Below, piece after piece: positions 14,147 to 49,980 of a stretch of 64,000 bases of DNA. The stretch lies in assembly GCF_016865485.1 (NCBI RefSeq), contig NZ_AP024452.1:2564501-2628500 (forward strand), in the 5' to 3' direction. Position numbers and translations under genes: made by a program. Every line of letters starts with the position of its first letter. The first letter of the stretch is position 1. Below the pieces are notes generated by a model. The model was given only the letters and a program-made list of their open reading frames with translations. It did no database searches and was not told the origin of the DNA. Origin of the DNA: Luteitalea sp. TBR-22. GTDB lineage: Bacteria > Acidobacteriota > Vicinamibacteria > Vicinamibacterales > Vicinamibacteraceae.

Positions 14147-14219
14147 CACCGAAACATCACACCAATCCGATCAAGTCCGTCACTTCGCCTGCGGCCCGGA
14201 CATGCATAGTAGGGAACCC

Positions 14220-26429: not shown

Positions 26430-26456
26430 TGACGCGTAACGCGTGACGCGTGACGG
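26430..26456. repeat. 7-base repeat array (TRACGCG type)
   Basis: TGACGCG, TAACGCG, TGACGCG and TGACGGC in phase, about 30 bases before arsM. Confidence 0.7.
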
Positions 26457-26485
26457 CGATCGCGGTAGCAAGGCCTGGAGGGGTC

Positions 26486-31168: not shown

Positions 31169-31373
31169 GTAGGTCCTCGGTGATGGGGGCCTGTCCGCGA
31201 GCATGCCGGGCCGCGGAACGCCCCATGAAGGATCGCGGCGGGGCGTCACCGCACCACGACGGGTGGGTTACGTGCGCGTTAAATGCCTGATCCCTCGGTG
31301 TTACACGCGGCGTCGGTCCCCGGCAGGACGCGGGGGGCGGTCAGCGGACCCGTCTGCTACGATCGCCGGGCAC

Positions 31374-34129: not shown

Positions 34130-34130
34130 G

Positions 34131-34243
34131 AATTTCAGAATTTCAGAATTTCAGGATTTCAGGATTGCGGGATTGCGGGATTGCGGGTGTTCAGAGTGTT
34201 CCGAGCCGTTCGTGCAATGGTGAACGTCTGAAATTCTGAAATC
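34131..34243. repeat. Stop-abutting 8-base repeat array with inverted copy
   Basis: Eight in-phase octads start one base after the GT2 stop codon: AATTTCAG three times, GATTTCAG, GATTGCGG three times, GTGTTCAG. Inverted copies CTGAAATT and CTGAAATC follow at 34228-34243, just before the end of the convergent kinase gene. The two ends can pair to form a long stem. Confidence 0.85.
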
Positions 34244-34256
34244 GCGGAATGCCCAA

Positions 34257-35630
34257 TCAGACCCGCGGGAGCGTGATCGTGAACACGGCGCCGCCCTCGG
34301 GGCGGTTGCTGGCGCTGACCGTGCCGCCGTGCAGTCCGACGAGGTGCCGGACGATGGACAGCCCCAGGCCCGTGCCGCCCGAATCGCGCGACCGCGCCTT
34401 GTCGACGCGATAGAACCGCTCGAAGATGCGCGGCAGTTCCGCATCGGGGATGCCCTGGCCGGTGTCGGCGACCGTCAGCCGCACGTGCCGTGCGTCGGCG
34501 CGCGCGGAGAGCTCGATGCGGCTGCCCTCGGGCGTGTAGGCGCAGGCGTTCTCGACGAGGTTGCGCAACACGTCGTGCATCTTGGCCGGGTCGCAGCGCA
34601 GCGCGAGGTCGGCGGGCGACACGTCGATGGACACCTGCTGGCGTCGGCCGTCGGTGAGTGTCTGCAGGTCGCCCGTGACGGCGGTGAAGAGTCCCTCCAC
34701 CGACGCGTCGGCAAGGTCGAGCCGCTCTTGTCCGGCGTCGAGCCGCGCCAGCCGGAGCAGGTCCTTCACCAACCGCTCCATCCGCCATGAGTGCCTGGCG
34801 ATGATCTCGAGGAACCGCGTCGACTCGGCCGAGTGCTCCGGGCCGTCGAGCAGGGCCTCGACGTAGCCACGAATCGCCGTCAGCGGCGTGCGCAGCTCGT
34901 GCGACACGTTGGCCACGAAGTCGCGGCGGATGCGATCGGCGCGACGCAGGTCGCTGATGTCGTGCAGCACCAGCACGGCCCCCCGGCTGCCGGGCGTGAT
35001 GGCCGGCGAACACCGGGCGACGAACGTCTGGCCGTCGCGGCCAATCGACAGCTCGAGGCCACCGGGCCGCTCGCCCTGCAGGGCCTGGCCGATCTGGCGG
35101 GCGATGTCGGGGTGGCGGATCAGCTCGACGTACTTGCGGCCGATCGGGGAGGCGTCCAGCCGCAGCAACTGCCGCGCGGCCTCGTTGGCGATCTGCACCT
35201 GACCCTGCTCGTTGACCACCAGGACGCCCTCGACCATGCCCGACAGCACCGCTTCGAGTCGGGCGCGGTCGCGCGTGAGGTCGCCCAGCCGGATCTCGAG
35301 CGCGTTGGCCGCGGCATTGACGGCCCGCGCGACGCGACCCAGCGCATCGCCCCGGGTCTCGGGCAACGGGCGGTGCGGTTCCCCGGTCGCCAGGGCGCGG
35401 ATGGCGGTCACGACGTCGCCGATGCGGTCGTCAACCACCGTCGAGGCCATCCATCCGGTGATCACGGCGGACACGGCCGCCGTGACGATGCCGACCAGTG
35501 CCACCCGCAGCAGGAAGGCGGGTGTCGCCTCCAGGGGCTGGCCCGTCGTCCACGCGACGCCGAGCATGAACAGCGGCGTGAAGAGCGCCGTCTGCAGTGC
35601 CGTGAGGATGACGAAGGTGGGAATGCGCAC
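34257..35630 (-). CDS. PhoR-like sensor histidine kinase
   Basis: A 457-residue membrane kinase. Two N-terminal helices ('FVILTALQTALFTPLFMLGV', 'RVALVGIVTAAVSAVITG') flank a very short periplasmic loop. A HAMP-like region, a PAS domain ('LEAVLSGMVEGVLVVNEQGQ') and the dimerisation helix with phospho-His 'FVANVSHELRTPLTAIRGY' come next. The ATPase has N box 'NLVENACAYTPEG', G1 'VADTGQGIPDAE' and G2 'GGTGLGLSIVRHL'. The layout matches PhoR, which senses PstSCAB-PhoU rather than a ligand. GTG at 35630 lies four bases after the regulator stop. Confidence 0.9.
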   Translation of the reverse strand: MRIPTFVILTALQTALFTPLFMLGVAWTTGQPLEATPAFLLRVALVGIVTAAVSAVITGWMASTVVDDRIGDVVTAIRALATGEPHRPLPETRGDALGRVARAVNAAANALEIRLGDLTRDRARLEAVLSGMVEGVLVVNEQGQVQIANEAARQLLRLDASPIGRKYVELIRHPDIARQIGQALQGERPGGLELSIGRDGQTFVARCSPAITPGSRGAVLVLHDISDLRRADRIRRDFVANVSHELRTPLTAIRGYVEALLDGPEHSAESTRFLEIIARHSWRMERLVKDLLRLARLDAGQERLDLADASVEGLFTAVTGDLQTLTDGRRQQVSIDVSPADLALRCDPAKMHDVLRNLVENACAYTPEGSRIELSARADARHVRLTVADTGQGIPDAELPRIFERFYRVDKARSRDSGGTGLGLSIVRHLVGLHGGTVSASNRPEGGAVFTITLPRV

Positions 35631-35634
35631 GGGG

Positions 35635-36344
<710 letters not shown>

Positions 36345-36348
<4 letters not shown>

Positions 36349-37079
36349 GAGGGGAGGGGCTCCGGGCGTCCCTGCACCTGGCCTTGCAGCCACTCGACCG
36401 GTGCGGCGGCAACGGCCTCACGCAGTTCGGTGTCCGAGCCGTACGCGCGTCGGGCGATGCGCCGCGCCGGCACGCGCCAGGCGACCACGGCACCGTCGAA
36501 CGGGTCGGGCGTGAGCGTCAGCGTCGGCCCATCGGGCACGCCCTTGTAGTAATCGAGCTCGAACCTGTCCTGCCATCCGTGGCACAGCGCGAGCGAGATC
36601 AGGTCCGCCGATCGGAGCGACGCGTAGTCGCGCAGGAAGCCATCGAACGAACCGGCGCCGCCAGCGGCGAGCTCGGCGACGCGGCTGTCGCGTTCCCGGG
36701 TCATCGTGCGGAAGAACTCGTGCCACGCCGGGTCGCCGTCGTAGCGCGCGTAGGCGGTGAGGGCGTGGTGGGCGACCAGCGCGGCGACGTGCGGCGTGTC
36801 GGCGAGCAGGCGCAGCGCGCGCGCCCACACGGCCTGGCGCCGTTCCAGCGGCAGGTGGATGAAGTCCCACGGCGCGCCGGTCTCCGGATTGACCGTCGGG
36901 GCATCGTCCTCCTCGGCCCATCCGCAATCGTGGGCGCGCGTGGCGGCGAGCAGCACGTCGAGCGTCGGCCTCGCGGGCACGCCATCGGCCTGCCAGTGGC
37001 CCAGCAGGTCTGCGGCCATGGCAGCGTGGTCAGGTTGCCTGATGAGGAGCCAGCTGTCGCCGTCGGGTCGGACAATCAC
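36345..37079 (-). CDS. DUF3891 family protein
   Basis: A 244-residue DUF3891 protein of unknown function. The family start 'MIVRPDGDSWLLIRQPDHAAMAADL' (abridged: IVRPDG, RQPDHAAMA) and the histidine/aspartate motifs 'RAHDCGWAEEDD', 'AALVAHHALTAYAR' and 'ALCHGWQDRFE' resemble an HD-type metal-binding helical fold; that comparison is mine. The start is GTG at 37079, with TACTCT exactly six bases ahead, so it is probably a leaderless first gene. It is followed with four-base overlap by the PhoB/PhoR-like pair, which suggests a role in the same signalling unit. Confidence 0.85.
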
Positions 37080-37105
37080 GGAGGCAGAGTAGCCCAGATC
37101 ATTCC

Positions 37106-37217
37106 AATGCCGGAATGCCGCGATGCCGGAGTGCGGAGGGGAGAGCGAGGGCAGGCCGAAGGCCCAGGACCCACGGCCGAAGGGCTCGGGCCCGACACCA
37201 GAGGCATCGGGCCCGAG
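37106..37217. repeat. 8-base repeat array and GC hairpin
   Basis: Octads AATGCCGG, AATGCCGC, GATGCCGG, AGTGCGGA run in phase from 37106. A perfect 11-base hairpin follows (CTCGGGCCCGA at 37185-37195 and TCGGGCCCGAG at 37207-37217, 11-base loop), just after the end of the first W-x-FAEG gene and ahead of the DUF3891 promoter. It probably terminates that gene. Confidence 0.75.
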
Positions 37218-37225
37218 TCGTCATG

Positions 37226-39541
37226 TCACCGGCATTCCGGGAAGAGGAACGCGCCCGTGTTCGGGTTCACCGCATCGCGGTAGCGCGGGCTCTTGCACAT
37301 CTCGCCCAGCGTCCAGCGGCCGATGGTGCCGCCGTCGAAGGTCGCCTGCGTCTGGTCGAGCCAGAACGGCGCGCCACCGCTCCGGTTCGCCGGGTTGCAG
37401 TGGTTGGCGATGATGTCGACGATGAACACCTGCGTGCTGTTGCGCATGTCGGAGCCTTCAGGACCGTAGTAGTAGGTCACGATGTCCTCCGACAGGCCCT
37501 GGTTGCCGCGCTTGATGTTCAGGGCCCAGCGGTTGGTGCCCGTCCGGATGCGCAGCTCGGCGACCACGTCCTCCATGAACTTCTCGTTGCCGCCGAACGC
37601 CCGGCACGAGTTGGCGATGTCGAACGGCTGGCGCCGCGCCATGTCGGACACCACGTTCAGGAACGACGGCATGATCTGGCAGGGGCGACCGCCGCCCGTA
37701 CAGCCGAAGCCGGCGTTGGCGCGGAAGGTGTTGTATGGCGTGCCGGTGGCGGCCCAGGGGTTGAAGTACTCGAACGCCTGCGGGGCGACGATCGTCTGGC
37801 CGCGCGTCTCGACGGTGACGTCCACCTTGCCCTGCGCCCCCGGCGGCGTCACCGCCCGGATCAGGGTGTCGGTTTCCACCTCGAAGGACGTGGCCGGGAC
37901 TCCGCCGAACAGCACGCGCGTCCCGACGTCGTTGTGGCCGAAGCCGGTGCCCTCGATTTCGACCGTCGTGCCGCCGGTCGGGACGCCGCGGCCGGGCGTC
38001 ACGGTGAGCGTGGTGCCGGGCGCCGCGGGCGGCAGCGACGGCGCGGTCAGCGCGAAGCCGTCCGGCAGGGGAGTGCCGAGGGAGGCGTGGCCGGCCGTGA
38101 ACCCGTTGCCCCAGTACACGACGCGCTCGGCGACGATGGCCTGATCGGACGAGAAGAAGGTGGCGAACTTCCTGTTGGCGAGCTCGGGATAGAGCAGCGG
38201 CCAGATGGTGGCGCGCGAGCGGGCCGGCACCGTGATGGTCTTGGTGACCCCGGTATTGGCGCCCTCGGTGTAGAAGTACGCCGTGACGGTGGCCGCGCTG
38301 GCCCCGGGGTTGTAGATGGGGAAGAACGTGTTGAAGCGGCGCTTGTCGGTCTGGCTCGCGTCCTGGTACATCAGGAACCCGCCCTGCAGGCCCTCGGCGA
38401 AGCCCCACTTCCTGGCGGGCGCGGTCGCGCCTGCCGTCGCGTGGCCCTCGAGCAGACCGCGCCAGTAGACGGCGCGCTCGGCGACGATCGGCTGGGTCGC
38501 GGTGACCTCCATCGCGAAGGCCTGGCCGGCCAGCGCCGGGACCGTCGACGTCGGGACGTTGTCGCGGGCCAGCGCCGGGATCGTCCGGGTGACCGTCGCG
38601 AGCTCGGTGCCGCCGTCAGCGTAGAACTTCACGGTGACCGTGGTCGGCGTGGCGTTCTGGTTGAAGAGGAGGAGGTAGGTGTCGAAGTTCAGCGTGCTGC
38701 CCTGGATGCCCTCGGCGAACATCCACGTGGCTGACGGCTGCGTGACGCCCATGGCGGCATGACCACCACGGATGCCGAAGGGCGCGCCCGGGCCCCAGTA
38801 CATCTGGCGCTCGGCAACGATCACCTGCTTCGGACCGACGTTGGCGTCGTCGATCGCCTCGACGATCGTCGCAAAGCCCGCCTGTCCCGGCTGGAAGCGC
38901 GGGCTGAGGACGGCGGTGGGCCAGAAGGTGAAGCGCGCATTGGCGGCGATCACCTGCTCCTGCGTGACGGCCGCGCCGCGATCGTCGAGGTACCGCACGC
39001 GCACGCGCGTCGGCACGGCGTTGGGGTTGGCCACCGAGATGAAGGTGTTGAAGAACTTGCCCTCGCCCTCGGCGAAGTACCAGGTGTAGGAGCCCGCCTC
39101 CACGCCCTTCTCGTTGTGGCCGCCGCGCATGTCGCTGACCGGCGAGGCCCAGAGGCGACCGCCGCGGAACAGGCCGCCGCCCCAGTACATCGTGCGCTCT
39201 GCGATGATCGGCCCGGTCGCCGTGACGCGCAGCGCGATGCCGGCGCGATCACCGACCCCGGGCAGGGAACGCACGTTGACGCCGGTGCGACTGAGGGGCG
39301 GCAGCGTCAGGACGAACGGCGCAATCGGGTCGCCGTCCTGCGTGAAGGCCGCAATCGTGACCTGCACGTCCTGCGCATTGGGGTTGGCGAGGAGGAGTTC
39401 CTTCTCGAAGCCGAGCAGCCCGCTGGTCGAGCCCTCGGCGAACAGCCACGTGGTGAAATCCTGCGCACGCGCAGGTCCTGTCATCAGCAACGCGACGGCC
39501 GCGCACACGGCGGCCCTCGCGAATCGTTTCGCTCGGTACAT
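37226..39541 (-). CDS. Secreted W-x-FAEG repeat protein 1 (DUF5719-like) with IPT domain
   Basis: A 771-residue exported protein. Signal peptide 'AAVCAAVALLMTGPARAQ'. Four repeats of about 110-125 residues each start 'W-x-FAEG' ('TTWLFAEGST', 'YTWYFAEGEG', 'ATWMFAEGIQ', 'RKWGFAEGLQ') and close with 'ERxxYW...GHxxxG'. The pattern recalls DUF5719-type beta-sandwich repeats of actinobacterial surface proteins. An IPT/TIG domain follows ('VTPGRGVPTGGTTVEIEGTG'). The C-terminal 130 residues are the four-cysteine domain described under findings ('FDIANSCRAFGG', 'ANHCNPANR', 'GEMCKSPRYRD', ending 'FPECR'). One extra Cys pair precedes it. It is the last of four tandem paralogues. Function unknown; probably a cell-surface or matrix protein. 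Confidence 0.8.
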   Translation of the reverse strand: MYRAKRFARAAVCAAVALLMTGPARAQDFTTWLFAEGSTSGLLGFEKELLLANPNAQDVQVTIAAFTQDGDPIAPFVLTLPPLSRTGVNVRSLPGVGDRAGIALRVTATGPIIAERTMYWGGGLFRGGRLWASPVSDMRGGHNEKGVEAGSYTWYFAEGEGKFFNTFISVANPNAVPTRVRVRYLDDRGAAVTQEQVIAANARFTFWPTAVLSPRFQPGQAGFATIVEAIDDANVGPKQVIVAERQMYWGPGAPFGIRGGHAAMGVTQPSATWMFAEGIQGSTLNFDTYLLLFNQNATPTTVTVKFYADGGTELATVTRTIPALARDNVPTSTVPALAGQAFAMEVTATQPIVAERAVYWRGLLEGHATAGATAPARKWGFAEGLQGGFLMYQDASQTDKRRFNTFFPIYNPGASAATVTAYFYTEGANTGVTKTITVPARSRATIWPLLYPELANRKFATFFSSDQAIVAERVVYWGNGFTAGHASLGTPLPDGFALTAPSLPPAAPGTTLTVTPGRGVPTGGTTVEIEGTGFGHNDVGTRVLFGGVPATSFEVETDTLIRAVTPPGAQGKVDVTVETRGQTIVAPQAFEYFNPWAATGTPYNTFRANAGFGCTGGGRPCQIMPSFLNVVSDMARRQPFDIANSCRAFGGNEKFMEDVVAELRIRTGTNRWALNIKRGNQGLSEDIVTYYYGPEGSDMRNSTQVFIVDIIANHCNPANRSGGAPFWLDQTQATFDGGTIGRWTLGEMCKSPRYRDAVNPNTGAFLFPECR

Positions 39542-39864
39542 GCAACACCCTCGTCGATGAAACCCGCGCCGGCACACGGCGACTGGGATTCACCGCGCGG
39601 CGAGGGAGACTCCTACTGTATAGGCGACCAAGCTGGTCCGCAATCTCAGCTGTTCGTCGCCACGGCAGGGTTTAACGACGAAGTGTAATACACGAAATAA
39701 GTTTCACGCAAATCGTGTCGTTTTGGTATTTCACCGCGAATAATGTGTCGAATCGCCGACACATGAACGCCGAACGCCGAACGCCGAACGCCGAACCTCT
39801 GGCGTCGAACGCCGGACGCCGGGACGCGAACGGGCGCCCGGCATCCGGCATCACCGGCCTTGCG
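39542..39864. other. 323-base gap between W-x-FAEG genes 1 and 2
   Basis: Right part: a hairpin ATGTGTCG/CGACACAT (39743-39764) beside four exact GAACGCC heptads (39765-39792), likely ending gene 2. Left part: the promoter of gene 1, with TATACA/TACAGT-like -10 on the minus strand near 39615-39622 and an unusually AT-rich stretch 39670-39745. The gene 1 ribosome site (GAGG, seven bases, ATG) is at 39542-39556. Confidence 0.6.
39765..39797. repeat. 7-base repeat array (GAACGCC x4)
   Basis: Four exact GAACGCC units plus a partial fifth, between two W-x-FAEG genes. Confidence 0.85.
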
Positions 39865-42132
39865 CTACCGGCACTCAGGGAACATCCACTCGCCACTCGG
39901 GAACATCGCGTCGCGGTAGCGCGGGATGGCGCACATCGGCTCGGTGGTCCACCGCCCGACGGTCCCGCCAGCCAGCGTGGCGGCCGTCTGGTCGGCCCAG
40001 AACGGCGCCGGCCTCGCGCCGCAATGGCCCGAGACCGTGTCGTAGATCCGCACCGCTGTGCTGTTGCGCATGTTGCTGCCTTCCGGACCCGCGTAGTAGT
40101 TGACGATGTCCTGCGACAGGTCGCCGACGTTGCCGCGCTTCCAGTTCAGGCCCCAGCGTGTGCTGTTGAACCGCCGCCGTAACTCGGCGACGACCTCGAA
40201 CATGAACGTGTTGGTGCCGCCGCGTTCCTTGCAGGAGTTGGCCAGATCGAACGGGCGCGCCGCCGCCACCTCCGCCACCACGCCTTCGAGGCTGCCGAAG
40301 CTGAGGGGCGGCCCGGCCAGGAACGGATCGGCGAACCTGAACGCGCCGGGCAGTTCCAGCGCGACGCCGCGCGTGTTCACCAGCACGCTCGACAGGCCCA
40401 GGCCACTCGCCGGCGTGACGACCCGGATGGTGTCGCCGTTGAGCACCGTGATGTTCTCGCGCGGCACCGGCGTGACGCCGAACGCCATCGTCGTCTCTCC
40501 TCCCGGCCACGACAACAGGCCGAGGCCGTGCCCGTACAGGTACGCCACCGTGCCACCGCCGGGGCCGCCCCGGTTCGGGCTGATGGCCAGCAGCGTCGGG
40601 GCCGCCGTCGGCGTCGGCGCCGCGAACGACGGCGTGCCATCGGGCAGGATCGCGCCGGCGCTCGCATGGCCCCCCTGCAGCCCGATGCCCCAGTAGACGG
40701 CGCGCTCGACGATGACGGCATCGCTGGCCTCGAAGAAGGCAGCGAACTTCCGGTTGTGCAGCGACGGGTGCTCGGCCGGCGACAGCGTGCGGCGCGAGTA
40801 CGCCGGCACCTGTACGGTGGTCTCGGCGCCGGCCGCCACGGGTTCACCGGGCTGCGGCTCAACGTAGTACACCGCGCGCACCGTCACGGCCTGCGCGGTG
40901 GGATTGGCCACCAGGTAGTACGTCGCGAAGTGACGCGGGTCAGGATCGCCGCCGTCCTGGAACTGGCCGAATCCGCCCTGCTGCCCGTCGGCGAACCCCC
41001 ACTTGCGCGCCGGCGTCGTCACGCCGGCCGAGGCCGTGCCTTCACGCAGGCCTCGCCAGTACACGGCGCGCTCGGCGACGATGGGCTGGCCGTTGGCCGA
41101 GTGGGCGCGCACCGCGAAGGTGGTGTTGTCTCCGGACAGTTCGGGATACAGGCCCGCGTACACGTTGCGGCGGCCCTGCGCCGGCACGCGTTCGGTGACG
41201 CTTCTGACCACGCCCGACACCCCGAGGAAGTCCACCACCACGTCCACGTCTGCACTCGGGTTCGGGTTGTACAGAAGGACGTACGTGTCGAAGCTGGCCG
41301 GGCCGCCCTGCGCGCCCTCGGCGAAGTACCACGTCGGCGCCGCCTGGCTACCGAGCGCGGCGTGACCGCCCCGCAGCGACGGGCCCCAGTACATCGCCCG
41401 TTCCGCCACCACGGGCACGTTGTTGGCCGACTCGACGTCGATGGCGAACTCGAGACGCTCGCGTGGCCCGATCTGCCGCGCCACGACGTCGTTGATCCAG
41501 AACGTCTCGCGGCTGCCCGGCGCGATCCACGCGCCCTCGATCAGGTGCCCGCCCGTGCCGGGAAACAGGTTCACCCGCACGTAGGCCGGCTCGGTGGACG
41601 GGTTGCTGACCAGGACGTAGGTCTGGAACTGGTACGGACCGCCGATGGCACCTTCGGCGAACATCCAGCGGAGTTGCGGCGCGTTGGCGCCGAGCACGTT
41701 GTGGCCGCCGCGCATGTCGGTGACCGGTGAGCCGCCCGTGTAGGCCGGCCCGAAGTTGAACAGACCGCGTCCCCAGTACATGGAGCGCTCGACGACGACG
41801 TCGGCCGTCGAGATCACCTCGAGGGCGGCATCGCCGCGTGGCACGAACTGCCGCACGTTGATGCCCTGTCGGCTGTAGGGGGCGACGGTCGTGGTGCCGA
41901 TGATCGGCGCGCCCCCTCCGGCGGGGAGGAAGCGCAGCGTCACCGCCGCAGTGGTGCCGCCGGGGTTGCCGATGAGGATCTCCTCCTCGAAGGCGAAGCC
42001 GGGCACGGTGTTGGTGGAGCCTTCGGCGAAGTACCAGTGCCGGAGGTCGGATTGGGCGAGCGCCGGCGAGGGCGACACGAGTGCGGCGGCGACTGCGAGG
42101 CAGGCCGTCGCGACGAGACTGGCGTGGGGCAT
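39865..42132 (-). CDS. Secreted W-x-FAEG repeat protein 2 with IPT-like domain
   Basis: A 755-residue paralogue of the flanking genes. Signal peptide 'LVATACLAVAAALVSPSPA'. Repeats begin at 'RHWYFAEGST', 'LRWMFAEGAI', 'PTWYFAEGAQ' and 'RKWGFADGQQ' (Glu changed to Asp), each closing with 'VERSMYWG', 'AERAMYWG', 'AERAVYWR' or 'VERAVYWG'. The IPT-like segment is 'ISPNRGGPGGGTVAYLYGHG'. The C-terminal four-cysteine domain is well conserved ('FDLANSCKERGGTNTFMFE', 'RWGLNWKRGNVGDLSQDIV', 'SGHCGARP', 'EPMCAIPRYRD', 'FPECR'). Its repeats are the most diverged of the four. Ribosome site GAGG lies seven bases before ATG. Confidence 0.8.
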   Translation of the reverse strand: MPHASLVATACLAVAAALVSPSPALAQSDLRHWYFAEGSTNTVPGFAFEEEILIGNPGGTTAAVTLRFLPAGGGAPIIGTTTVAPYSRQGINVRQFVPRGDAALEVISTADVVVERSMYWGRGLFNFGPAYTGGSPVTDMRGGHNVLGANAPQLRWMFAEGAIGGPYQFQTYVLVSNPSTEPAYVRVNLFPGTGGHLIEGAWIAPGSRETFWINDVVARQIGPRERLEFAIDVESANNVPVVAERAMYWGPSLRGGHAALGSQAAPTWYFAEGAQGGPASFDTYVLLYNPNPSADVDVVVDFLGVSGVVRSVTERVPAQGRRNVYAGLYPELSGDNTTFAVRAHSANGQPIVAERAVYWRGLREGTASAGVTTPARKWGFADGQQGGFGQFQDGGDPDPRHFATYYLVANPTAQAVTVRAVYYVEPQPGEPVAAGAETTVQVPAYSRRTLSPAEHPSLHNRKFAAFFEASDAVIVERAVYWGIGLQGGHASAGAILPDGTPSFAAPTPTAAPTLLAISPNRGGPGGGTVAYLYGHGLGLLSWPGGETTMAFGVTPVPRENITVLNGDTIRVVTPASGLGLSSVLVNTRGVALELPGAFRFADPFLAGPPLSFGSLEGVVAEVAAARPFDLANSCKERGGTNTFMFEVVAELRRRFNSTRWGLNWKRGNVGDLSQDIVNYYAGPEGSNMRNSTAVRIYDTVSGHCGARPAPFWADQTAATLAGGTVGRWTTEPMCAIPRYRDAMFPSGEWMFPECR

Positions 42133-42450
42133 TGCGGGACCTCGGTGGAATCCGCGCCCAGATGATCGACGGCCGGGAGCCGTCAGGTGGGCGGGGCGTC
42201 TCGCACTATAGGCACCCCGGGACGCCGACTGCAATCACAGCCGCGACGCGAACTGGTCAGTAGATGCTGACCGATCTCGGCCATGGCAACGTCGACCGCC
42301 GCACGCAGAAGGGGCGCTCCCGAAACTCGAGAGCGCCCCTGTCGTCCTGCTGATCGGCCTTCGTCATCCGGCCGTCGGCCTTCGTACGTCAGCCGTTGTG
42401 CCCTCTGCCGTCCTGCCTTTCTTCGTCGGCAGCGCGGCATCGCGGCTGTG
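42133..42450. other. 318-base gap between W-x-FAEG genes 2 and 3
   Basis: A perfect 10-base hairpin (AGGGGCGCTC 42310-42319 / GAGCGCCCCT 42331-42340) likely terminates gene 3. The gene 2 promoter region has TATAGT (minus strand, 42210-42205) with TTGCAG 18 bases above it. No gene is visible. TCGGCCTTCGT occurs twice near 42353-42390. Confidence 0.6.
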
Positions 42451-44745
42451 CTATGGCCGGCACTCCGGGAACAGCCAGTCGCCGTTGGGGTACTTGGCGT
42501 CGCGGTAGCGCGAGTTCGTGCACATCGGGTCGGTCGTCCACTTGCCGACCGTGCCGCCGTCGATGGTCTTCTGCGTGACGTCCTCGCCGTTGGGCACGGG
42601 ACGGGTGCCGCAGTGCCCGCCGACGATGTCGTAGATGCGCACCGACGTGCTGTTGCGCATGCTCGTGCCCTCGGCGCCGGTGTAGTAGTTGACGATGTCC
42701 TGCGACATGTCGCCGACGTTGCCGCGCTTCCAGTTGAGGCCGAAGCGGTTGGTGTTGTACTTCAGGCGGAGGGCAGCCACCACCTCGAACATGAAGGTGT
42801 TGTTGCCGCCGGTCTCCTTGCACGAGTTGGCGAGGTCGAAGGGACGGGCGGCAGCGACCTCGCTCACGGTGCCGAGGATGTTGTACGACACGGCCGGGCC
42901 GGCCGCGTTCGGGTCGAAGAACGTGAAGCCGCCGGGCAGCGTCACGGTCTGTCCCCTGGTGATCACGGTCACGTCCACGGGGCCCTTGCCGCCGGGTGTC
43001 TTCGCCTTGATCAGGCTGTCGTTCTCGACCTCGAACTCCCTGGCCGCCACGCCGCCGAACAGGACCTGCGTGCCGAACTCGGTGTTGCCGAAGCCGGCGC
43101 CCTCGATCTTCACTTCCGTGCCGCCCGTCGGGGTGCCGCGGTTGGGCGTCACGGTGAGCGTTGCCGTCGGGATCGTGCGGGCGTTCGGGGCCGGCGAGAA
43201 CGTGAAGCCCTCGGGGAAGGGTGTGCCGAGTGCGGCGTGGCCGGCCTTGTTGCCGCGGCCCCAGTACATCGCGCGCTCGACCACGATCGGCTGATCCGAC
43301 GAGAAGAACGTCGCGAACTTGCCGTTGGCGAGCTCGTCGTAGAGCAGCGTCCACACCGTCTCGCGCGACTGGCCGGGCACCGTGATGGTCTTGGTCACAC
43401 CCTGGTTGCCGGTGTCGCCGTTCTCCGTGTAGAAGTGCACGGTCACCGTTGCCGGCGTCGTCCCCGGGTTGTAGATCGGGAAGAACGTGTTGAACCGGCG
43501 CTTGTCGGTGTCGTTGTCGTCCTGGTACATCAGGAAGCCGCCCTGCTGGCCTTCCGCGAAACCCCACTTGAGGGCGGGCGCCGAGGCGCCGCCCGTCGCC
43601 GAGCCTTCCGCGAAGCTGCCCCAGTAGACGGCGCGTTCGGCGATGAACTCCGCCGCCGAGGTGGTGCGAATCGAGAATGCGGCGTTGCGGAGCGGGTACA
43701 GGCCGGAGCCGACCGGGTACTCGACCTCGCGGGCCCAGACGTTGTCGCGCGCGTCGGCCGCCACCGTGCGCGTCACCTCGGCGAGCTTCGCGCCGCCCTG
43801 GCCGAAGAACTCCACCTTGATGTCGATCGGCGAGGCGTTCGGGTTGAACAGCAGGACGAACGTCTCGTACACGGGCGCACCGGGAGCAAGGCTGCCCTGG
43901 ATGCCCTCGGCGAACAGCCACGTGTCCTCGGGCTCGGTGATGCCCATCGCCACGGTGCCACCGCGGATGCCGGCGCCCCAGTACATCTGGCGCTCGGCCA
44001 CGATGTCCTGCGCCTCTCCGGTGAACGCGTCGTCGGTGGTGCTGTTGTCGGCGAGGGACTCGACGACGGTCGCAAAGCCGGCCTGGCCGTCCTTCAGCTT
44101 GTCGCCGATGGCCGCGGTCGGCCAGAAGGTGCGGCGGCCGAACGCCGGCACGATCTCGGTGTCGGTGTACTTGCGCCCCGCGTCGTCGCGATAGGTGGCG
44201 CGCACCTTGGTGGCCACCGCGTTCGGATTGGCCACCGAGATGAAGCTGTTGAAGTACCGCGCCTCGCCCTCGGCGAAGTACCACTTCTTGGCGCCGCTGG
44301 TCGCGCCGTGCTCGGCGTGGCCGCCGCGCATGTCGTTGACCTTCTGCGTCCAGACCTTGTCGCCACGGTACAGGCCGCCGCCCCAGTACATGGTGCGCTC
44401 GGCGACGATCGGCAGGCTGGACGTGAGCTTCAGGGCCACCCCTGCGCGATCACCGACCAGCGAACGGACGCTGAAGCCGGTGCGCGAGAGCGGCGCGACC
44501 GTGCGGACCACGGGCGCCAACTGCTCGCCGTCCTGCGTGAACAGGTTGAAGGTCAGCGTGACGACCGACGTGTTCGGGTTCCCGATCAGGATCTCCTGCT
44601 CGAAACCGAAACTCGCGTTCGTGGAGCCCTCGGCGAAGATCCAGGTGGTCAGGTCGGGTCCGGACGTGGCGGACGCCGCAACCGGGGAGAGGAGCGCGGT
44701 CAGGGCACACAGCCCCACCGACGCCAGCTTGACGGCTTTGAACAT
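42451..44745 (-). CDS. Secreted W-x-FAEG repeat protein 3 with IPT domain
   Basis: A 764-residue paralogue, closest to genes 1 and 4. Signal peptide 'VGLCALTALLSPVAASA'. Repeats start 'TTWIFAEGST', 'KKWYFAEGEA', 'DTWLFAEGIQ' and 'LKWGFAEGQQ'; the closing motif is 'AERTMYWGGG', 'AERQMYWGAG', 'AERAVYWGSF' and 'VERAMYWGRG', each followed by a G-H-x3-G turn. The IPT domain is 'VTPNRGTPTGGTEVKIEGAG'. The four-cysteine C-terminal domain is complete ('NSCKETGG', 'GGHCGTRP', 'DPMCTNSRYRD', 'FPECRP'). Start ATG 44745 with GAGG seven bases ahead; TATAGT about 70 bases upstream. Confidence 0.8.
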   Translation of the reverse strand: MFKAVKLASVGLCALTALLSPVAASATSGPDLTTWIFAEGSTNASFGFEQEILIGNPNTSVVTLTFNLFTQDGEQLAPVVRTVAPLSRTGFSVRSLVGDRAGVALKLTSSLPIVAERTMYWGGGLYRGDKVWTQKVNDMRGGHAEHGATSGAKKWYFAEGEARYFNSFISVANPNAVATKVRATYRDDAGRKYTDTEIVPAFGRRTFWPTAAIGDKLKDGQAGFATVVESLADNSTTDDAFTGEAQDIVAERQMYWGAGIRGGTVAMGITEPEDTWLFAEGIQGSLAPGAPVYETFVLLFNPNASPIDIKVEFFGQGGAKLAEVTRTVAADARDNVWAREVEYPVGSGLYPLRNAAFSIRTTSAAEFIAERAVYWGSFAEGSATGGASAPALKWGFAEGQQGGFLMYQDDNDTDKRRFNTFFPIYNPGTTPATVTVHFYTENGDTGNQGVTKTITVPGQSRETVWTLLYDELANGKFATFFSSDQPIVVERAMYWGRGNKAGHAALGTPFPEGFTFSPAPNARTIPTATLTVTPNRGTPTGGTEVKIEGAGFGNTEFGTQVLFGGVAAREFEVENDSLIKAKTPGGKGPVDVTVITRGQTVTLPGGFTFFDPNAAGPAVSYNILGTVSEVAAARPFDLANSCKETGGNNTFMFEVVAALRLKYNTNRFGLNWKRGNVGDMSQDIVNYYTGAEGTSMRNSTSVRIYDIVGGHCGTRPVPNGEDVTQKTIDGGTVGKWTTDPMCTNSRYRDAKYPNGDWLFPECRP

Positions 44746-45136
44746 GAAACGACCTCGTGGTGAACGCGCGTCAGCCACTCGGTGGCCGGGACACCGACAG
44801 ACGCGGGCGGCCTCTACTATAGAAGCCTTCCGAAACTGGTGAAACAAATAATCCGGAAAAAATCCCTGAGGTCACATCGGTGACGGCAGGTCGGCACCGT
44901 AGCGCCGCGGCTTCCGACCCATCAGATGCAATTGATGGGCCGGAGCCGGAAACGGCTGGATGGAGGCCGACGCGCGGCGACTGGCGGCAATCGTCCCTAT
45001 TCGCTGACGGTCGGCAGACGAGGGGTGTCCGGAATCCATCCGGAACGATTTACCCGTTCCATGGTCCGGAGCCCTCGTCCGTCCGAACGGACGCGTCTGC
45101 GTCGTTCACGTCAGGCCCTATCGAACGGCAGGTGGT
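44746..45136. other. 391-base gap between W-x-FAEG genes 3 and 4
   Basis: Left end: gene 3 leader with ribosome site, -10 TATAGT (44821-44816, minus) and an A-rich stretch at 44840-44870. Middle and right: small inverted repeats (CCCATCA/TGATGGG at 44918-44939, GTCCGT/ACGGAC near 45078-45093) that could end gene 4. No protein-coding gene is supported. Confidence 0.55.
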
Positions 45137-47224
45137 CTAGAAGTACTCGAACACCCCACGCGCGACGACCTGGCCGCGGGTGACCACCGTCACCTCGACC
45201 TTGCCAGCCGCGCCCGCCGGGGCGACGACGCGGATCTCGTTGCGCTCGACCTTCACCACGCGGGCCGCCGCCGTGCCGAAGAACACCTGGCTGCCGGGTT
45301 CGATGACCGTGCCCAGCACGTTCTCGACCTCCACGTTCACGATGGTCCCGCCGGCGGCCGGGCCCCATCGCGGCTCGATCTCGACCTTCGTGCCCGCCGC
45401 GGGTGAGCCTGCCTCCTCGTCGTCATCGTCGTCGCCCGACGCCCCCGGGGCGACGTAGGTGAAGGCCCCCGGCAGGACGACCGTCGTGCCACGGGTGATG
45501 AGCGTGATGTCGACCCGCCCGAGGGCGTGCGGCGGCGCAATGGCCTTCAGTTCACGGTCGTGCTCGACCTCCAGGCGCAGCGCCGGGACGCCGCCGAACA
45601 GGACCTGGGTGCCCAACTCGGTGTTGCCCAGGCCGGTGCCCTCGATCTCGACTTCGGTGCCGCCCGTCGTGGCGCCCTTCGAGGGCTCGACTTCGCGGAC
45701 CGTGACCTGCGGGGCGGGCGGCAGCTTGGTGGCGGCCGTGAGCGTCAGGCTGTCGGGCAGCGGGATGCCCAGCGACGCGTGCCCCGCCTTGTTCCCCTTG
45801 CCCCAGTACACGACGCGCTCGACGACGATCGGCTCGGTGGAGGAAATGAAGGTCGCGAAGCGGCGGTTGGCGAGCTCGTCGTAGAGCAGGGTCCATATCG
45901 TCTCGCGCGACTGGCCGGGCACGGTGATGGTCTTGCTCACGCCCGTGTCACCGTGTTCCGTGTAGAAGTGCACGGTCACCGTCGCCGCGGTCGTGCCGGG
46001 GTTGTAGATCGGGAAGAACGTGTTGAACCGGCGCTTGTCGTCGTCGTCATCGTCCTGGTAGCGGAGGAAGCCGCCCTGCAAGCCCTCGGCGAATCCCCAC
46101 TGCCGCGACGGCTCGGTGGCGCCGGCCGTCGCCGTGCCCTCCGACAACCCGCGCCAGTACACGGCGCGCTCGGCCACGAACGGCACGGTGGCCGTGGCTC
46201 GAATGGAGAACGCCTGGTTGGCAAGGGCGGGCAGTTCCTTCGCCCACACGCCCCCACGGGCGCCGGCCTCGACGGTGCGGACCACCTGCGCGAGCTTCAC
46301 GCCGGCCTGGCCGAAGAACTCGACGGTCACGTCGATGGGGCCGGTGGAGGGATTGAACAGCAGCACGAACGTGTCGAACGACGGATCGCCGCCCGGTGTC
46401 AGGCTGCCCTGGATGCCCTCGGCGAAGAGCCACGTCAGCGCAGGCGTCGACACCCCCATCGCGGCGTGGCCGCCGCGGATCCCCGAGGGCGCACCGTCGC
46501 CCCAGTACATCTGCCGCTCTGCGACGACATCGACGTCCGACGTGACGATGGTCGCGAATCCGGCACGGCCCGATTGCAGGCGCCGGCTCAGCACGGCGGT
46601 GGGCCAGAAGGTGCGGCGCGCGTGGGGAGGGACGACCTCGGCCTGCTTCACCTCGGTGCCGGTGTCGTCGCGATACGAGACCACGACGTTGGCCGGCGTG
46701 TCACCGGGGTTTGCCACCGAGATGAACGTGTTGAAGAACTTGCCCTCGCCCTCGGCGAAGTACCAGGTGCGGGCGCCCTCGTCGGTGCCGTGCTCGCTGT
46801 GGCCTCCGCGCATGTCGCTGACGCGGCCGCGATAGCCCTTGACCTCGGGCCGGAACAGGCCGCCGCCCCAGTACATCGTCCGCTCGGCGACGATCGGCAG
46901 GGCGGATGTGAGCTTCAGCGCGATGCCGGCACGGTCGCCGGCCAGCTGCCTGACGCTCTCGGTGAAGCGGGCCCGCGCAGGCACCGTGCGCGTGATCGGC
47001 GCGAGCGCCTGGCCGTCCTGCGTGAACAGCTCGAAGGTCACCACGACCGGCACCGCATTCGGGTTGCCGATGAGGATCTCCTCCTCGAAGCCGAATGCGC
47101 CGTTGGTGGAGCCCTCGGCGAAGAGCCAGGTGGTGAGTGACGGCGGCGCCGCCACGAGGGGCGCCGGGACGGAGAGCGCGATGGCGCTGGCGAGCACCAT
47201 GGCCGGAAATACGAGACGGGTCAT
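45137..47224 (-). CDS. Secreted W-x-FAEG repeat protein 4 with two IPT domains
   Basis: A 695-residue paralogue and the first gene of the tandem set. Signal peptide 'VLASAIALSVPAPLVAA'. Repeats start 'TTWLFAEGST', 'RTWYFAEGEG', 'LTWLFAEGIQ' and 'RQWGFAEGLQ'. It lacks the C-terminal four-cysteine domain of the other three. Instead it has a first IPT domain ('VEPSKGATTGGTEVEIEGTG'), an acidic linker ('GDDDDDEEAG') and a second IPT-like domain ('EPRWGPAAGGTIVNVEVENV'), ending 'ARGVFEYF'. A further acidic run, DDDDDDK, interrupts the fourth repeat. Ribosome site GAGG lies seven bases before ATG, as in the other three. Confidence 0.8.
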   Translation of the reverse strand: MTRLVFPAMVLASAIALSVPAPLVAAPPSLTTWLFAEGSTNGAFGFEEEILIGNPNAVPVVVTFELFTQDGQALAPITRTVPARARFTESVRQLAGDRAGIALKLTSALPIVAERTMYWGGGLFRPEVKGYRGRVSDMRGGHSEHGTDEGARTWYFAEGEGKFFNTFISVANPGDTPANVVVSYRDDTGTEVKQAEVVPPHARRTFWPTAVLSRRLQSGRAGFATIVTSDVDVVAERQMYWGDGAPSGIRGGHAAMGVSTPALTWLFAEGIQGSLTPGGDPSFDTFVLLFNPSTGPIDVTVEFFGQAGVKLAQVVRTVEAGARGGVWAKELPALANQAFSIRATATVPFVAERAVYWRGLSEGTATAGATEPSRQWGFAEGLQGGFLRYQDDDDDDKRRFNTFFPIYNPGTTAATVTVHFYTEHGDTGVSKTITVPGQSRETIWTLLYDELANRRFATFISSTEPIVVERVVYWGKGNKAGHASLGIPLPDSLTLTAATKLPPAPQVTVREVEPSKGATTGGTEVEIEGTGLGNTELGTQVLFGGVPALRLEVEHDRELKAIAPPHALGRVDITLITRGTTVVLPGAFTYVAPGASGDDDDDEEAGSPAAGTKVEIEPRWGPAAGGTIVNVEVENVLGTVIEPGSQVFFGTAAARVVKVERNEIRVVAPAGAAGKVEVTVVTRGQVVARGVFEYF

Positions 47225-47562
47225 GCACGAACCTCGCTGAAGTCACACCAGGGCTGGCGGCGACAGGCCGCCGGTCCGCCGACGTGACACTTCATAAGGG
47301 TGAGGACCGGGCGCGTTCGGTGGGCGAGCGCTCGGACCGGGTACCGCACGTTCGAACGACGGCCCTGCAAGTCGCGCGCCTGTCGGACACGGCCGGAAGA
47401 ACGCGTGCGCCGTGATGTCGGGAGCACTCGAGGCCCCGAGTCAGAGACGAAAGCGTAAGTGTTTCGTCGTGATTGGCGACGCGTGCAACCACGCGACCTT
47501 GCGAGGTGATCACGCGGTCCTGTCGAACGATATCGGGGAATGTCCCGGTGCGGCTCGGTGCG
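47225..47562. other. 338-base region upstream of W-x-FAEG gene 4
   Basis: Contains the leader of gene 4 (GAGG at 47232-47235, minus) and a possible -10 (TTATGA on the minus strand near 47291-47296). The rest, down to the end of the unrecognised membrane-protein gene at 47563, has no credible ORF or strong hairpin. Confidence 0.5.
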
Positions 47563-49980
47563 CTACTCCTGGCGGCGGATCGTCCATCCGCGGACGAGCA
47601 GGCCGAGCGTGCGCCCATCGGCCCCCGGTCGCAGGTCGGCAGGGCGACGCGTGCGCGTGGTGATCAGCGTGAAGGTGTTCGGGCCCGCATGCAGGTGGGT
47701 CGCCTCGACGGGCCACTCGTAGATCCCGCGGGTGGGCATGAGTGGGTGGGCGGCGAGCCCGACGCCGTTCACCGCAAGCGTGACGGTGTCGCCGGGCTCC
47801 GGGGCGCCCGGGCCCTGCGCGTCGAGGGCGAACACCAGCGATCCGGGTGAGCGGAACGCGAAGAGCAGGTCGGCGCGTCCACCCGCCATCCAGCGGAACT
47901 GCCCCATGCCGGGCTCGACCTCGGCGTCGTGCCAGCCGTACCCGAAATGTGCTTCGAGGCTCGGCGCGACGCGCATCTCGATGGGCTCGCGCGTCACCTC
48001 CAGGGGGTGGAGCATCGGCCACGCGGCACACACCCGGCTCGCCACGGTACTGGTCGCCCGCGCATCGGTCACCGCGCCCCGCAGCAGGAGTCCCATGGCG
48101 CCGGACGAAGGGAACGCGAGGGCGAACGAGCCGTGCTGGCCCGTCGACAGCGTCGGCCCGTCGGGCCTGGCCCGTGTGGCGAGGCGGACGTCGCCGGAGA
48201 TGCCGCTCGCGCGGGTCAACCGGACGTCGATCGTGCCCGGCCCGGACGTGACGAGGCCCAGTGCCCCGGCCTGCGCCAGGTGGCCGATGGCCGCGCCGCG
48301 ATCCGGAGCGATGTCGACGCACGGCAGCGAGGTGATCACCTGGCTGCGCGTCCGTGGGCCGCCGCCAAGGGCGGGGCCGTCGAGGCCTGACGGCAGCGGT
48401 CCACTGCGCCAGGCGAGGAAGTCCCCGCGCGTGCTGAAGAACAGCAGCGCGAGGCCGCGTTCGTCCTCGAGCACGGGCTGTCCTCGTAACCAGGCGCTGA
48501 CGCGACTGGACCCTGCCTCGAGGCGCAGGTCGACGGGCGCGCGTGCGCCGGTGCGGCCGAGCGGATCGCCCGGCTGCATATCGAGGCGCGCCGATCCGGC
48601 TTGCGCCACCTCCAGTCCTTCGACTCGCGTGCCGGTGAGACCGACCACGGCGTGCGCTCGCGGCTGACCCGCATCGGCGAGTCGGAGGCCGATCCGCGCG
48701 AGGGCGCGCCACTGCGGCGCCGACAAGCGCGCCGCGGCGTCCTGCGAGATGACGGCGACGGCCACGATGCCCCGCGGCAGCGCCTCGAGCACCGCCTCCA
48801 GCGGCGCCCCGAGGCCATCGCCGACCTCGTCGAGCGCGACGCCCTGCCAGCGCAGCCGGTCGCGGGTCGGCATGTCCACGAGGATCGGCCGTCGTCCAGC
48901 TCGCGCCGCCGCCGCGGTCGCCTCAGGCGCCACGGTCCGTGCGTCGGCCTCGGGGACGAGCGCGCGCGCGAGCAGGCCCTGCGCCGACGGCGCCACCACG
49001 AGGGGCGAGGCCGGCGACACGTGAGCGGCCACGCCCTCCGCCCATGTACGCACGAGGGCCGCCTGTTGCCGCTGATGGCCCCATGGCACCTGGGCGGAGT
49101 GCAGGGTCGCCCAGGCGATCAGTCCCGCCACCGCCCATCGACCCGCCCACCGGCCCCGCCAGGCGACGAGTTGGGCGATGCCGGCGCCGACCAGCCACCA
49201 TGCCCATGGCAGCAACACGGCCGCGCGCAGCGCGGGTGTCAGCGGTGTGGTGACCAGCGTGACCGCCACCAGGCCGAGCCATGCCCACCGGCGGGGCACC
49301 TGCGGGGCGGCAGGTCCCAGCCATGCCGGGAGCAGGGTGAGCCCGATCAGGCCGAGGTCTTCCCGCATCACCTGAAGGCTGGCGCCGAGCGACGACCCGT
49401 GGCGCCAGTGCGCGACGGCTTCCGCCACCGCCAGCAACGCCACCAGCGCGACGGGCACGCCGACGCCGGCCCGGAGCGATGACGAGGGGCGCGACACCAG
49501 CCACCACAGCGCGAGGGTGCTGGCCATCGTGAGCGGGCCAGCGCCCAGAGGCGACGACGCCTGCCAGGCCGACAGCGGCGCCGCGGCTGCGACGATCGCC
49601 AGCAAGCTCGCCAGCAGGGGCGACAGGCCCGATCGCAGGAGCGCGCGCGCCAGGATCGCCGTCGTCGCCGCGCCGAGCGCCGCCGCCACCAGGACGGCCC
49701 CGGCGATGGCGGCGCCGCTACCGACCGTCGCGCCGACCGCGATTTGCGCGGCGGCGAGTCCCCCCTGCACGCCGGTGAGTGCCGCGTTCCACGCGTCAGC
49801 CGTGGCAGGCCCCCGGGCGTACGGCAGCCAGGCGGTGGAGGGCACCGCCAGCGCAACGGTGATCATGACGAGGGCGCCCGCCAGGGCCGGCCCCGCGACG
49901 CCCGACGTGCGTACAATGCGCGAGGTCGGCGGGGCGCCCGTTCCGGGCCCGCCTGCCGGTCCTGCCGATCTCGTGCTCAC
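47563..49980 (-). CDS. Large membrane protein with C-terminal soluble domain, unrecognised
   Basis: An 805-residue protein that I do not recognise. The N-terminal 310 residues hold about nine hydrophobic helices ('ALAGALVMITVALAVPSTAW', 'VLVAAALGAATTAILARALL', 'LVALLAVAEAVAHW'). The rest is soluble and Arg/Ala-rich with beta-rich stretches ('GDTVTLAVNGVGLAAHPL', 'LHAGPNTFTLITTRTRR'). The layout resembles a GT-C glycosyltransferase or a polysaccharide-processing membrane protein, but no motif confirms it. GTG at 49980 is preceded by GAGGAG on the minus strand, nine bases ahead; ATG 50022 would overlap the divergent gene by 50 bases. Confidence 0.6.
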   Translation of the reverse strand: MSTRSAGPAGGPGTGAPPTSRIVRTSGVAGPALAGALVMITVALAVPSTAWLPYARGPATADAWNAALTGVQGGLAAAQIAVGATVGSGAAIAGAVLVAAALGAATTAILARALLRSGLSPLLASLLAIVAAAAPLSAWQASSPLGAGPLTMASTLALWWLVSRPSSSLRAGVGVPVALVALLAVAEAVAHWRHGSSLGASLQVMREDLGLIGLTLLPAWLGPAAPQVPRRWAWLGLVAVTLVTTPLTPALRAAVLLPWAWWLVGAGIAQLVAWRGRWAGRWAVAGLIAWATLHSAQVPWGHQRQQAALVRTWAEGVAAHVSPASPLVVAPSAQGLLARALVPEADARTVAPEATAAAARAGRRPILVDMPTRDRLRWQGVALDEVGDGLGAPLEAVLEALPRGIVAVAVISQDAAARLSAPQWRALARIGLRLADAGQPRAHAVVGLTGTRVEGLEVAQAGSARLDMQPGDPLGRTGARAPVDLRLEAGSSRVSAWLRGQPVLEDERGLALLFFSTRGDFLAWRSGPLPSGLDGPALGGGPRTRSQVITSLPCVDIAPDRGAAIGHLAQAGALGLVTSGPGTIDVRLTRASGISGDVRLATRARPDGPTLSTGQHGSFALAFPSSGAMGLLLRGAVTDARATSTVASRVCAAWPMLHPLEVTREPIEMRVAPSLEAHFGYGWHDAEVEPGMGQFRWMAGGRADLLFAFRSPGSLVFALDAQGPGAPEPGDTVTLAVNGVGLAAHPLMPTRGIYEWPVEATHLHAGPNTFTLITTRTRRPADLRPGADGRTLGLLVRGWTIRRQE

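Follow-up and report, generated by a model that had tools for sequence, protein, structure and literature searches.

What kind of protein is encoded by four consecutive genes whose products each carry four copies of a repeat beginning W-x-FAEG, and what would such a protein do outside the cell? These genes (P0001 to P0004) lie in the genome of Luteitalea sp. TBR-22, a single contig of 6,468,984 bases, within bases 2,564,501-2,628,500, a stretch of 64,000 nucleotides (nt) that was analysed as a whole and is called the window here. TBR-22 belongs to the class Vicinamibacteria, has duckweed fronds as its isolation source, and is a cultured representative of an abundant but rarely characterised phylum (PMC8852301). 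The strain attaches to duckweed fronds and roots, and scanning electron microscopy (SEM) revealed network structures on the fronds, which the authors took for extracellular polymeric substances (EPS) (PMC8225144). The genes share one strand and are transcribed in the order P0004, P0003, P0002, P0001, with intergenic gaps of about 320-390 bases. An earlier reading of the window from its sequence (the original prediction) had given their lengths as 771, 755, 764 and 695 residues, which were confirmed exactly as open reading frames (ORFs). A signal-peptide-like stretch was recognised by eye at the N-terminus of all four proteins, which are presumably exported. The explanation that we consider probable, with considerable room for doubt, is that each is a secreted single-chain tetrad of ASRAH domains (the superfamily of the Anabaena sensory rhodopsin transducer, ASRT), which would bind a glycan and thereby target the IPT domain and the tail that follow.

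Identity of the repeat

All 16 repeats of the window, four per protein, start with W-x-FA[E/D]G, FADG occurring once (repeat 4 of P0002), and end with ER-x-x-YW, just as originally described. A single-repeat profile was made from 67 repeats, 8 from the window and 59 from 15 related loci (60 were taken from these loci and one short repeat of locus L113 was left out). Using hmmsearch against the PDB, this profile matched ASRT (2ii7, E 2.5e-6; 2iia, E 2.6e-6) and TM1070 (1nc7, E 8.6e-6), and the sole further match up to E 1 was the streptococcal R4 surface protein at E 0.007. ASRT was found by sequence solely with this single-repeat profile and not in the full-length searches: the four matches that full-length P0003 gave up to E 1, the best at 0.052, fall within the IPT domain or at its end and leave the repeats uncovered, and a seven-row full-length profile placed IPT domains on top, some antibody chains appearing from E 0.0035 upwards.

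The structure prediction of a repeat, which had been suggested originally as a check, pointed to the same fold. The AlphaFold2 model of P0003 has a mean predicted local distance difference test (pLDDT) score of 82.9, with most of the repeat region above 85, and Foldseek matched it to 1nc7 with a probability of 1.00 and a template-modelling (TM) score of 0.74-0.75 on the target. In a VIA comparison, residues 361-485 (repeat 4) matched the TM1070 beta-sandwich (1nc7) at Z 7.9, with a root-mean-square deviation of 2.9 over 112 aligned residues. The ASRAH superfamily was defined by De Souza, Iyer and Aravind in 2009, and its landmarks are a Trp, preceded by a polar residue, that opens strand 1 and an almost unvarying Asn that closes strand 2 (PMC2739507). 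Among 544 aligned repeats (136 ORFs with four separate matches, locus L060 being left out), the strand-2 Asn is kept in 538, including 16/16 in the window, and the strand-1 Trp in 458, with 44 more gapped at this position.

In profile searches against Pfam, the gathering cut-off (26.2 bits) of DUF5719 (PF18986), to whose modules the repeats had originally been likened, was exceeded by P0001 (37.0), P0003 (43.7) and P0004 (46.3), with P0002 just under it at 25.8, and 47 of the 67 single repeats matched it at E ≤ 0.1. DUF5719 was thus the right lead, but the ASRAH identity had been missed; the model, which has no assigned function, spans 319 positions, a length between those of a single repeat and the whole tetrad. 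The ASRT model itself (PF07100) gave no match at E ≤ 1 for P0001-P0004 and its gathering cut-off was not reached, while 10 of the 67 single repeats matched at E ≤ 0.1 (best 0.0044) and some relatives gave matches under the cut-off. Taken from the profile and the predicted structure together, the W-x-FAEG repeat is assigned to the ASRAH domain.

The fixed count of four

Related loci were ranked and the best 80 of 208 were kept, and alignment A5 holds 34 of the 36 loci screened out of these 80, the 2 with stops being dropped. In the retrieved loci and the window, four repeats were counted in 138 of 142 repeat-bearing ORFs, a set that includes the four window genes and is not fully independent, given that one contig is present as both L052 and L060 and that there is overlap between some loci. 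Two of the remaining four ORFs lie at locus edges (1 and 2 repeats), and two were counted as five (L082 and L133). Since the ranking favours full tetrads, the count was also made in the TBR-22 genome with the single-repeat model. Of its 125 matches, all but one sort by place into 31 groups of exactly four; the exception, a partial match at 1024702-1024902 of the genome (E 5.7e-6), lies outside any tetrad.

The repeats also resemble each other by position. Repeat 1 is 43-68% identical to repeat 1 of the paralogues and 28-40% identical to the other repeats of its own protein, and the other positions mostly behave alike; the least clear is repeat 2 of P0002 (32-44% to the other second repeats, 35-39% to its own other repeats). 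As position-wise identity is higher between paralogues, the tetrad is older than these duplications. Homogenisation of the repeats within each protein is rejected by the same comparison, least clearly for repeat 2 of P0002.

A solo ASRAH protein is a tetramer whose cleft is partly formed by the dimer interface, and other ASRAH families occur as dyads or tetrads (PMC2739507). With the fixed count of four and these homotetrameric relatives, the four repeats most likely form one single-chain tetramer rather than an open-ended stalk. This bears on the alternative that the four proteins are structural, with repeats that act as stiff spacers, and build a surface layer, matrix or adhesive coat, as put forward originally. 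The export seen by eye, the repeats and the IPT domains would suit such a role, as would the duckweed attachment and the network structures of TBR-22 (PMC8225144). Weak hints come from one of the 67 repeats, which matches the S-layer protein Slr4 at E 0.0057, from the R4 match of the profile, and from a Rib domain at E 0.11 for P0004. However, spacer repeats usually vary in number, whereas the count here is fixed at four; the nearest solved fold is a cleft-bearing tetramer, and related proteins carry hydrolase domains. No finding identifies the repeats as stalk modules of a surface layer; for their superfamily, binding of small molecules has been predicted, its solo members form tetramers, and the repeats come in fours. 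A structural role is therefore considered rather unlikely.

Table 1. Features of the four-gene array (positions in the window)
Feature	Position	Strand	Description
P0001	37226..39541	-	771 residues; signal peptide (by eye), then ASRAH tetrad, IPT and C-terminal domain
P0002	39865..42132	-	755 residues; layout as P0001
P0003	42451..44745	-	764 residues; layout as P0001
P0004	45137..47224	-	695 residues; tetrad, two IPT, without C-terminal domain
Tetrad of P0001	38063..39454	-	repeat 1 39095-39454, repeat 2 38732-39085, repeat 3 38414-38728, repeat 4 38063-38413
Tetrad of P0002	40642..42042	-	residues 31-497
Tetrad of P0003	43213..44649	-	repeat 1 44296-44649, repeat 2 43930-44289, repeat 3 43573-43923, repeat 4 43213-43569
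Tetrad of P0004	45755..47134	-	residues 31-490
IPT/TIG of P0001	37766..38005	-	residues 513-592; Pfam
IPT/TIG of P0002	40366..40599	-	residues 512-589; under Pfam cut-off
IPT/TIG of P0003	42919..43155	-	residues 531-609; Pfam and structure match
Best-scoring IPT/TIG of P0004	45455..45700	-	residues 509-590; Pfam
C-terminal domain of P0001	37229..37678	-	
C-terminal domain of P0002	39868..40311	-	
C-terminal domain of P0003	42454..42900	-	modelled alone; mean pLDDT 93.7, predicted TM score (pTM) 0.90
-10-like hexamer TATACA of P0001	39617..39622	-	4/6
-10-like hexamer TATAGT of P0002	42205..42210	-	5/6
-10-like hexamer TATAGT of P0003	44816..44821	-	5/6
Weak -10-like hexamer TATGAA of P0004	47291..47296	-	4/6
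15-bp hairpin after P0001	37185..37217	-	
14-bp hairpin after P0003	42310..42340	-	

Proposed function and ligand

Each gene would encode an exported protein with four fused ASRAH beta-sandwiches, which most likely fold together into a one-chain equivalent of the homotetramer formed by ASRT and TM1070, where adjacent units would enclose the ligand clefts. The ASRAH ligand was predicted in the 2009 study to be most likely a sugar (PMC2739507). The tetrad would most likely bind an extracellular glycan, such as the bacterium's own polysaccharide, peptidoglycan, or glycans of the plant or of neighbours. Once bound, it would target or hold the rest of the chain, which consists of the IPT spacer and, in P0001-P0003, also of a C-terminal domain of about 150 residues. 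We infer the export, the tetramer-like folding, the glycan binding and the targeting role alike. Tandem duplication together with exchange of tails would yield a small set of combinations of binding part and tail, each with its own promoter-like site.

The IPT/TIG domains named in the original prediction were recovered with the Pfam TIG model (PF01833, cut-off 20.9 bits) in P0001 (52.3), P0003 (39.9) and P0004 (71.8) but not in P0002, which scored 18.6. The IPT part of the P0003 model gave structural matches up to Z 12.1, and in P0004 Pfam counts a second TIG stretch, which by eye follows the first up to the stop, in place of the C-terminal domain.

The cleft residues of the repeats differ from those of ASRT and TM1070. 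The SHEshChhN cleft signature of the ASRT-like family was not found, and neither His nor Cys occupies these positions in any of the 16 window repeats. The pairs found at the cleft in repeats 1 to 4 are E/L, N/S, D or E/L, and N/P in P0001, P0003 and P0004, and E/L, Q/L, D/L and A/L in P0002. This deviation would fit another ligand for P0002, which may thus bind something different from the other three.

Several observations weigh against a glycan-binding ASRAH tetrad. The TM1070 cleft His is replaced by Glu or Asp in 350 of 538 repeats and the cleft Cys by Leu in 383 of 538, and no demonstrated ligand for any secreted ASRAH protein was found in the publications consulted. DNA looping by ASRT is the topic of a further report (PMC8660804), so that the ASRAH fold need not imply a sugar. 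The ORFs counted as five copies in L082 and L133, with partial matches, may depart from a strict four, and P0002 falls slightly below both the TIG and the DUF5719 cut-offs. As for the fold, 1nc7 is one of 50 VIA rows shown, the other 49 spanning the IPT region, and repeats 1-3 are not listed apart; by the tool's own note, a VIA Z below 8 can mean a common arrangement. The fold match of repeat 4 carries weight because the sequence match agrees with it.

The C-terminal domain

The C-terminal domain is common to P0001-P0003 and absent from P0004, neither of which the original prediction had noted. Pfam gave no match up to E 1 in 10 members, and in 33 members six families matched weakly and in a scattered manner, in one or two members each (best E 0.0067). 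PDB searches by sequence gave none up to E 1 with 10 rows and E 0.46 at best with 33 rows, and a Foldseek search of the PDB with the model gave none at E ≤ 0.001, a missing match that does not in itself show a new fold. Lys58, Asp68 and Asp91 are invariant in 33/33 aligned sequences, while the ANSC and GHC cysteines are absent in many phage members. In a second-look alignment of the model, the top nine rows were LapG, NTAQ1 and SseI at a weak Z of 2.9-4.1 (best 4.1, LapG), followed by an RNA polymerase chain at Z 2.8. One of the nine is a chain of a LapD-complex entry and is taken to be LapG, and all three proteins are papain-like or transglutaminase-like.

These results raise the alternative that P0001-P0004 are secreted enzymes or effectors whose activity resides in the C-terminal domain, with the tetrad serving only as a scaffold. 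The three invariant residues, the confident single-domain model and the identity of the top nine structural rows would all agree with an enzyme. However, those Z values are weak and Foldseek found no PDB match at E 0.001, no conserved Cys opens the long helix (by eye), and P0004 lacks the domain entirely, which makes an enzymatic or effector role quite improbable.

Within the phylum, the C-terminal domain was found at E ≤ 0.001 in 11 of 297 genomes, 10 of these from the same order. A pair of lipoprotein-like genes (by eye) ending in this domain lies at TBR-22 3028207-3030519 (L029), and like pairs occur in L051 (same genus) and in L057, L058 and L059 (same order). Relatives are also encoded by 33 viral contigs (L140-L172), of which 29 were aligned in alignment A4, 4 near-identical ones being left out. 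Read by eye, they are short, often Asn/Thr-rich lipoprotein-like ORFs, or lie near the start of another protein. PHROGs gave no family for five of these viral relatives.

Because phage proteins, lipoprotein-like ones and others, contain the domain as well, the array might be a phage-facing surface set, serving as a receptor, a decoy or a phage-derived module. Besides the 33 viral contigs and their many short lipoprotein-like ORFs, two uncharacterised Caudovirales proteins in a viral library match the model (E 4e-9 and 4e-3), and a scan of 5 neighbouring viral ORFs gave tail-family matches for 2. Against this, two viral relatives had no match in 50,697 named phage records, and PHROGs gave no family for P0001-P0003 and two weak ones for P0004 (best E 0.0056). 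A common domain, moreover, does not show an interaction, and a phage-facing array appears very improbable.

The glycan-binding tetrad can be extended to a more specific proposal, in which the array would be a combinatorial toolkit of single-chain ASRT-like lectin tetrads with exchangeable tails. The main tail would be a novel domain with a papain-like fold and Lys-Asp-Asp at its centre, common to bacterial surface proteins and phage lipoproteins, and binding specificity and end effect would be recombined between neighbours. In this full form, the proposal is speculative and unlikely.

Probable expression units and tail exchange

TATAAT-like hexamers lie 72-81 nt upstream of all four starts, and none of 2000 Markov resamples did as well, in a test whose motif and search range were set after the upstream sequences had been read. 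The two array genes of a genome with a single contig of 7,480,314 bases, taken to be Luteitalea pratensis, both have TATAGT 74-76 nt upstream. Hairpins lie 3' of every gene, with z-scores of -4.5 (P0001), -3.5 (P0002), -6.1 (P0003) and -3.9 (P0004) for stretches chosen by eye; 1 of 200 shuffles folds as well as that of P0004, and no clear T run follows them (by eye). A generic scan of the region gave 1 promoter versus 0.4 expected, and 3 terminators versus 4.5 expected, none behind the array genes, and no Rfam family was found within window positions 37000-47700. Hexamers and hairpins lend support to the earlier suggestion that each gene is its own transcription unit, which is likely on these sequence features; the alternative expression also raised at first is a conjecture.

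Identity to P0003 over the whole proteins is 59% for P0001, 47% for P0002 and 60% for P0004, so that paralogy extends beyond the W-x-FAEG motif. The parts of the chain, however, have different closest relatives. The tetrad of P0003 is of the P0004/P0001 type (58-83% to P0004 versus 34-50% to P0002), whereas its tail is of the P0002 type (69% versus 54% to P0001). Genome G002 combines a P0002-type tetrad with a P0001-type tail, and in a gene of the presumed L. pratensis a tetrad resembling those of P0003 and P0004 (with a support of only 80/82) is joined to a tail of the P0001 type (83%). Forcing each pairing to hold in the other tree was rejected by the approximately unbiased test (p-AU 4.5e-4, 1e-65 and 1e-19), its groups having been named after the identities had been seen. 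Because the trees of tetrad and tail conflict, tails have most likely been exchanged between neighbouring paralogues, and the recombination within the array that had been suspected at first has gained support.

The locus is syntenic with the presumed L. pratensis genome (L049), where the flanking genes are alike and two array genes stand in place of four. On one contig of the metagenome-assembled genome Ga0077522, an incomplete gene that matches P0003 at 63% is followed, in the order of the array, by genes resembling P0002 and P0001; a gene resembling P0004 lies on a separate contig.

Distribution and partner domains

P0003 has matches at E ≤ 0.001 in 18 of 40 genomes (own and related), including 7/7 of its own family, and the repeat profile in 33 of 199 genomes drawn from the phylum. 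Strong matches (best E < 1e-20) are confined to 5 of these 33 (G000, G001, G011, G128 and G176), and the weak ones in the other 28 (best E 1e-7) may include chance matches. The taxa named in the titles of the best 80 of 208 loci, nearly all of them metagenome bins, include Actinomycetota, Chloroflexi/Chloroflexota (Roseiflexus among them), Acidobacteria, Proteobacteria, Ignavibacteriae and a PVC-group bacterium.

Of the 31 TBR-22 proteins, 23 have the tetrad at the C-terminus and 8 have it at the N-terminus or internally. Pfam partners in 16 further TBR-22 proteins include GDSL hydrolase, FG-GAP, BACON, DUF11, cadherin-like, carboxypeptidase-regulatory, many TIG and fn3 domains, along with a matrixin-like match under the cut-off. 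Two Chloroflexi relatives (L064 and L113) have an amidase-like stretch, read by eye, in keeping with the 2009 study. A second tandem array of tetrads lies at TBR-22 2687607-2700499 (L028) and comprises three proteins with an N-terminal tetrad, two of them with a GDSL hydrolase above the Pfam cut-off, together with a divergent gene that encodes a C-terminal tetrad and gives a matrixin-like match below its cut-off; the array has counterparts in L050, a locus of the 7,480,314-base genome.

Neighbouring genes

Close to the array, window positions 31203-36393 hold an asparagine-synthase-like amidotransferase, a glycosyltransferase 2, and then a histidine kinase and response regulator pair, and the flanks are syntenic in L049. 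The asparagine-synthase-like gene (31203-33263) suggested a link with an exosortase/EPS locus, an idea that was rejected, as this gene scored 598.6 against the TIGR03108 cut-off of 816.9; the exosortase/EPS models at E ≤ 1e-5 matched none of the nine other window ORFs scanned. Upstream of the array, an ORF of 819 residues (47566-50022) has no Pfam match at E 0.01 and is 47% identical to its syntenic counterpart in L049. Farther away are an ORF of 765 residues (14202-16499), which combines a SulP-type transporter part with a C-terminal part resembling carbonic anhydrase, every match being under the NCBIfam cut-offs, and an ORF of 430 residues (26443-27735), whose C-terminal ~130 residues are above the cut-off for the arsenic resistance N-acetyltransferase ArsN2.

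Relation to known systems and significance

The ASRAH superfamily and its secreted tetrads are already known, having been described in 2009 (PMC2739507). In that study, De Souza et al. reported N-acetylmuramoyl-L-alanine amidases fused to ASRAH tetrads in Roseiflexus, Chloroflexus and Herpetosiphon (PMC2739507), and loci titled Roseiflexus (L113, L116 and L134) were recovered among the best 80 of 208. Those proteins are secreted, as P0001-P0004 presumably are, and likewise have four ASRAH domains per chain. P0001-P0004, in contrast, lack the amidase and carry IPT and, in P0001-P0003, a different C-terminal domain; they are tandem paralogues and belong to 31 tetrad proteins in one acidobacterial genome.

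ASRT (2II7) and TM1070 (1NC7), of PF07100, share the domain fold and the Trp and Asn landmarks with the array repeats. They are intracellular single domains that form homotetramers with a His/Cys cleft (PMC2739507), whereas the array repeats are fused, apparently secreted and changed at the cleft. DUF5719 (PF18986) is shared above its cut-off by three of the four proteins. The GDSL-tetrad proteins of TBR-22 (2687607-2697147) are alike in having an N-terminal tetrad followed by IPT, in standing three in a row and in having counterparts in the relative genome, but two of the three end in a GDSL hydrolase (above the Pfam cut-off) where the array has its own C-terminal domain. Literature searches, in which subscription papers are mostly outside coverage, found nothing on DUF5719 or PF18986 and, for ASRAH, ASRT, PF07100 and DUF1362, no later work on the secreted class beyond the 2009 study. 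Within this coverage, the novel points are the expansion in an acidobacterium, the architecture of IPT and C-terminal domain, the strict four, and the tail exchange.

If true, the single-chain tetramer would be a clean case of a homotetrameric complex converted to one chain, and the C-terminal domain links bacterial surface proteins and phages. The assignment places a large, un-named class of presumably exported acidobacterial proteins, 31 of them in one genome, in a known superfamily for which structures have been solved and a type of ligand has been predicted. The tetrad proteins may be tied to the attachment of TBR-22 to duckweed and to the network structures, and their placement in the superfamily makes the function directly testable in a duckweed-attaching strain.

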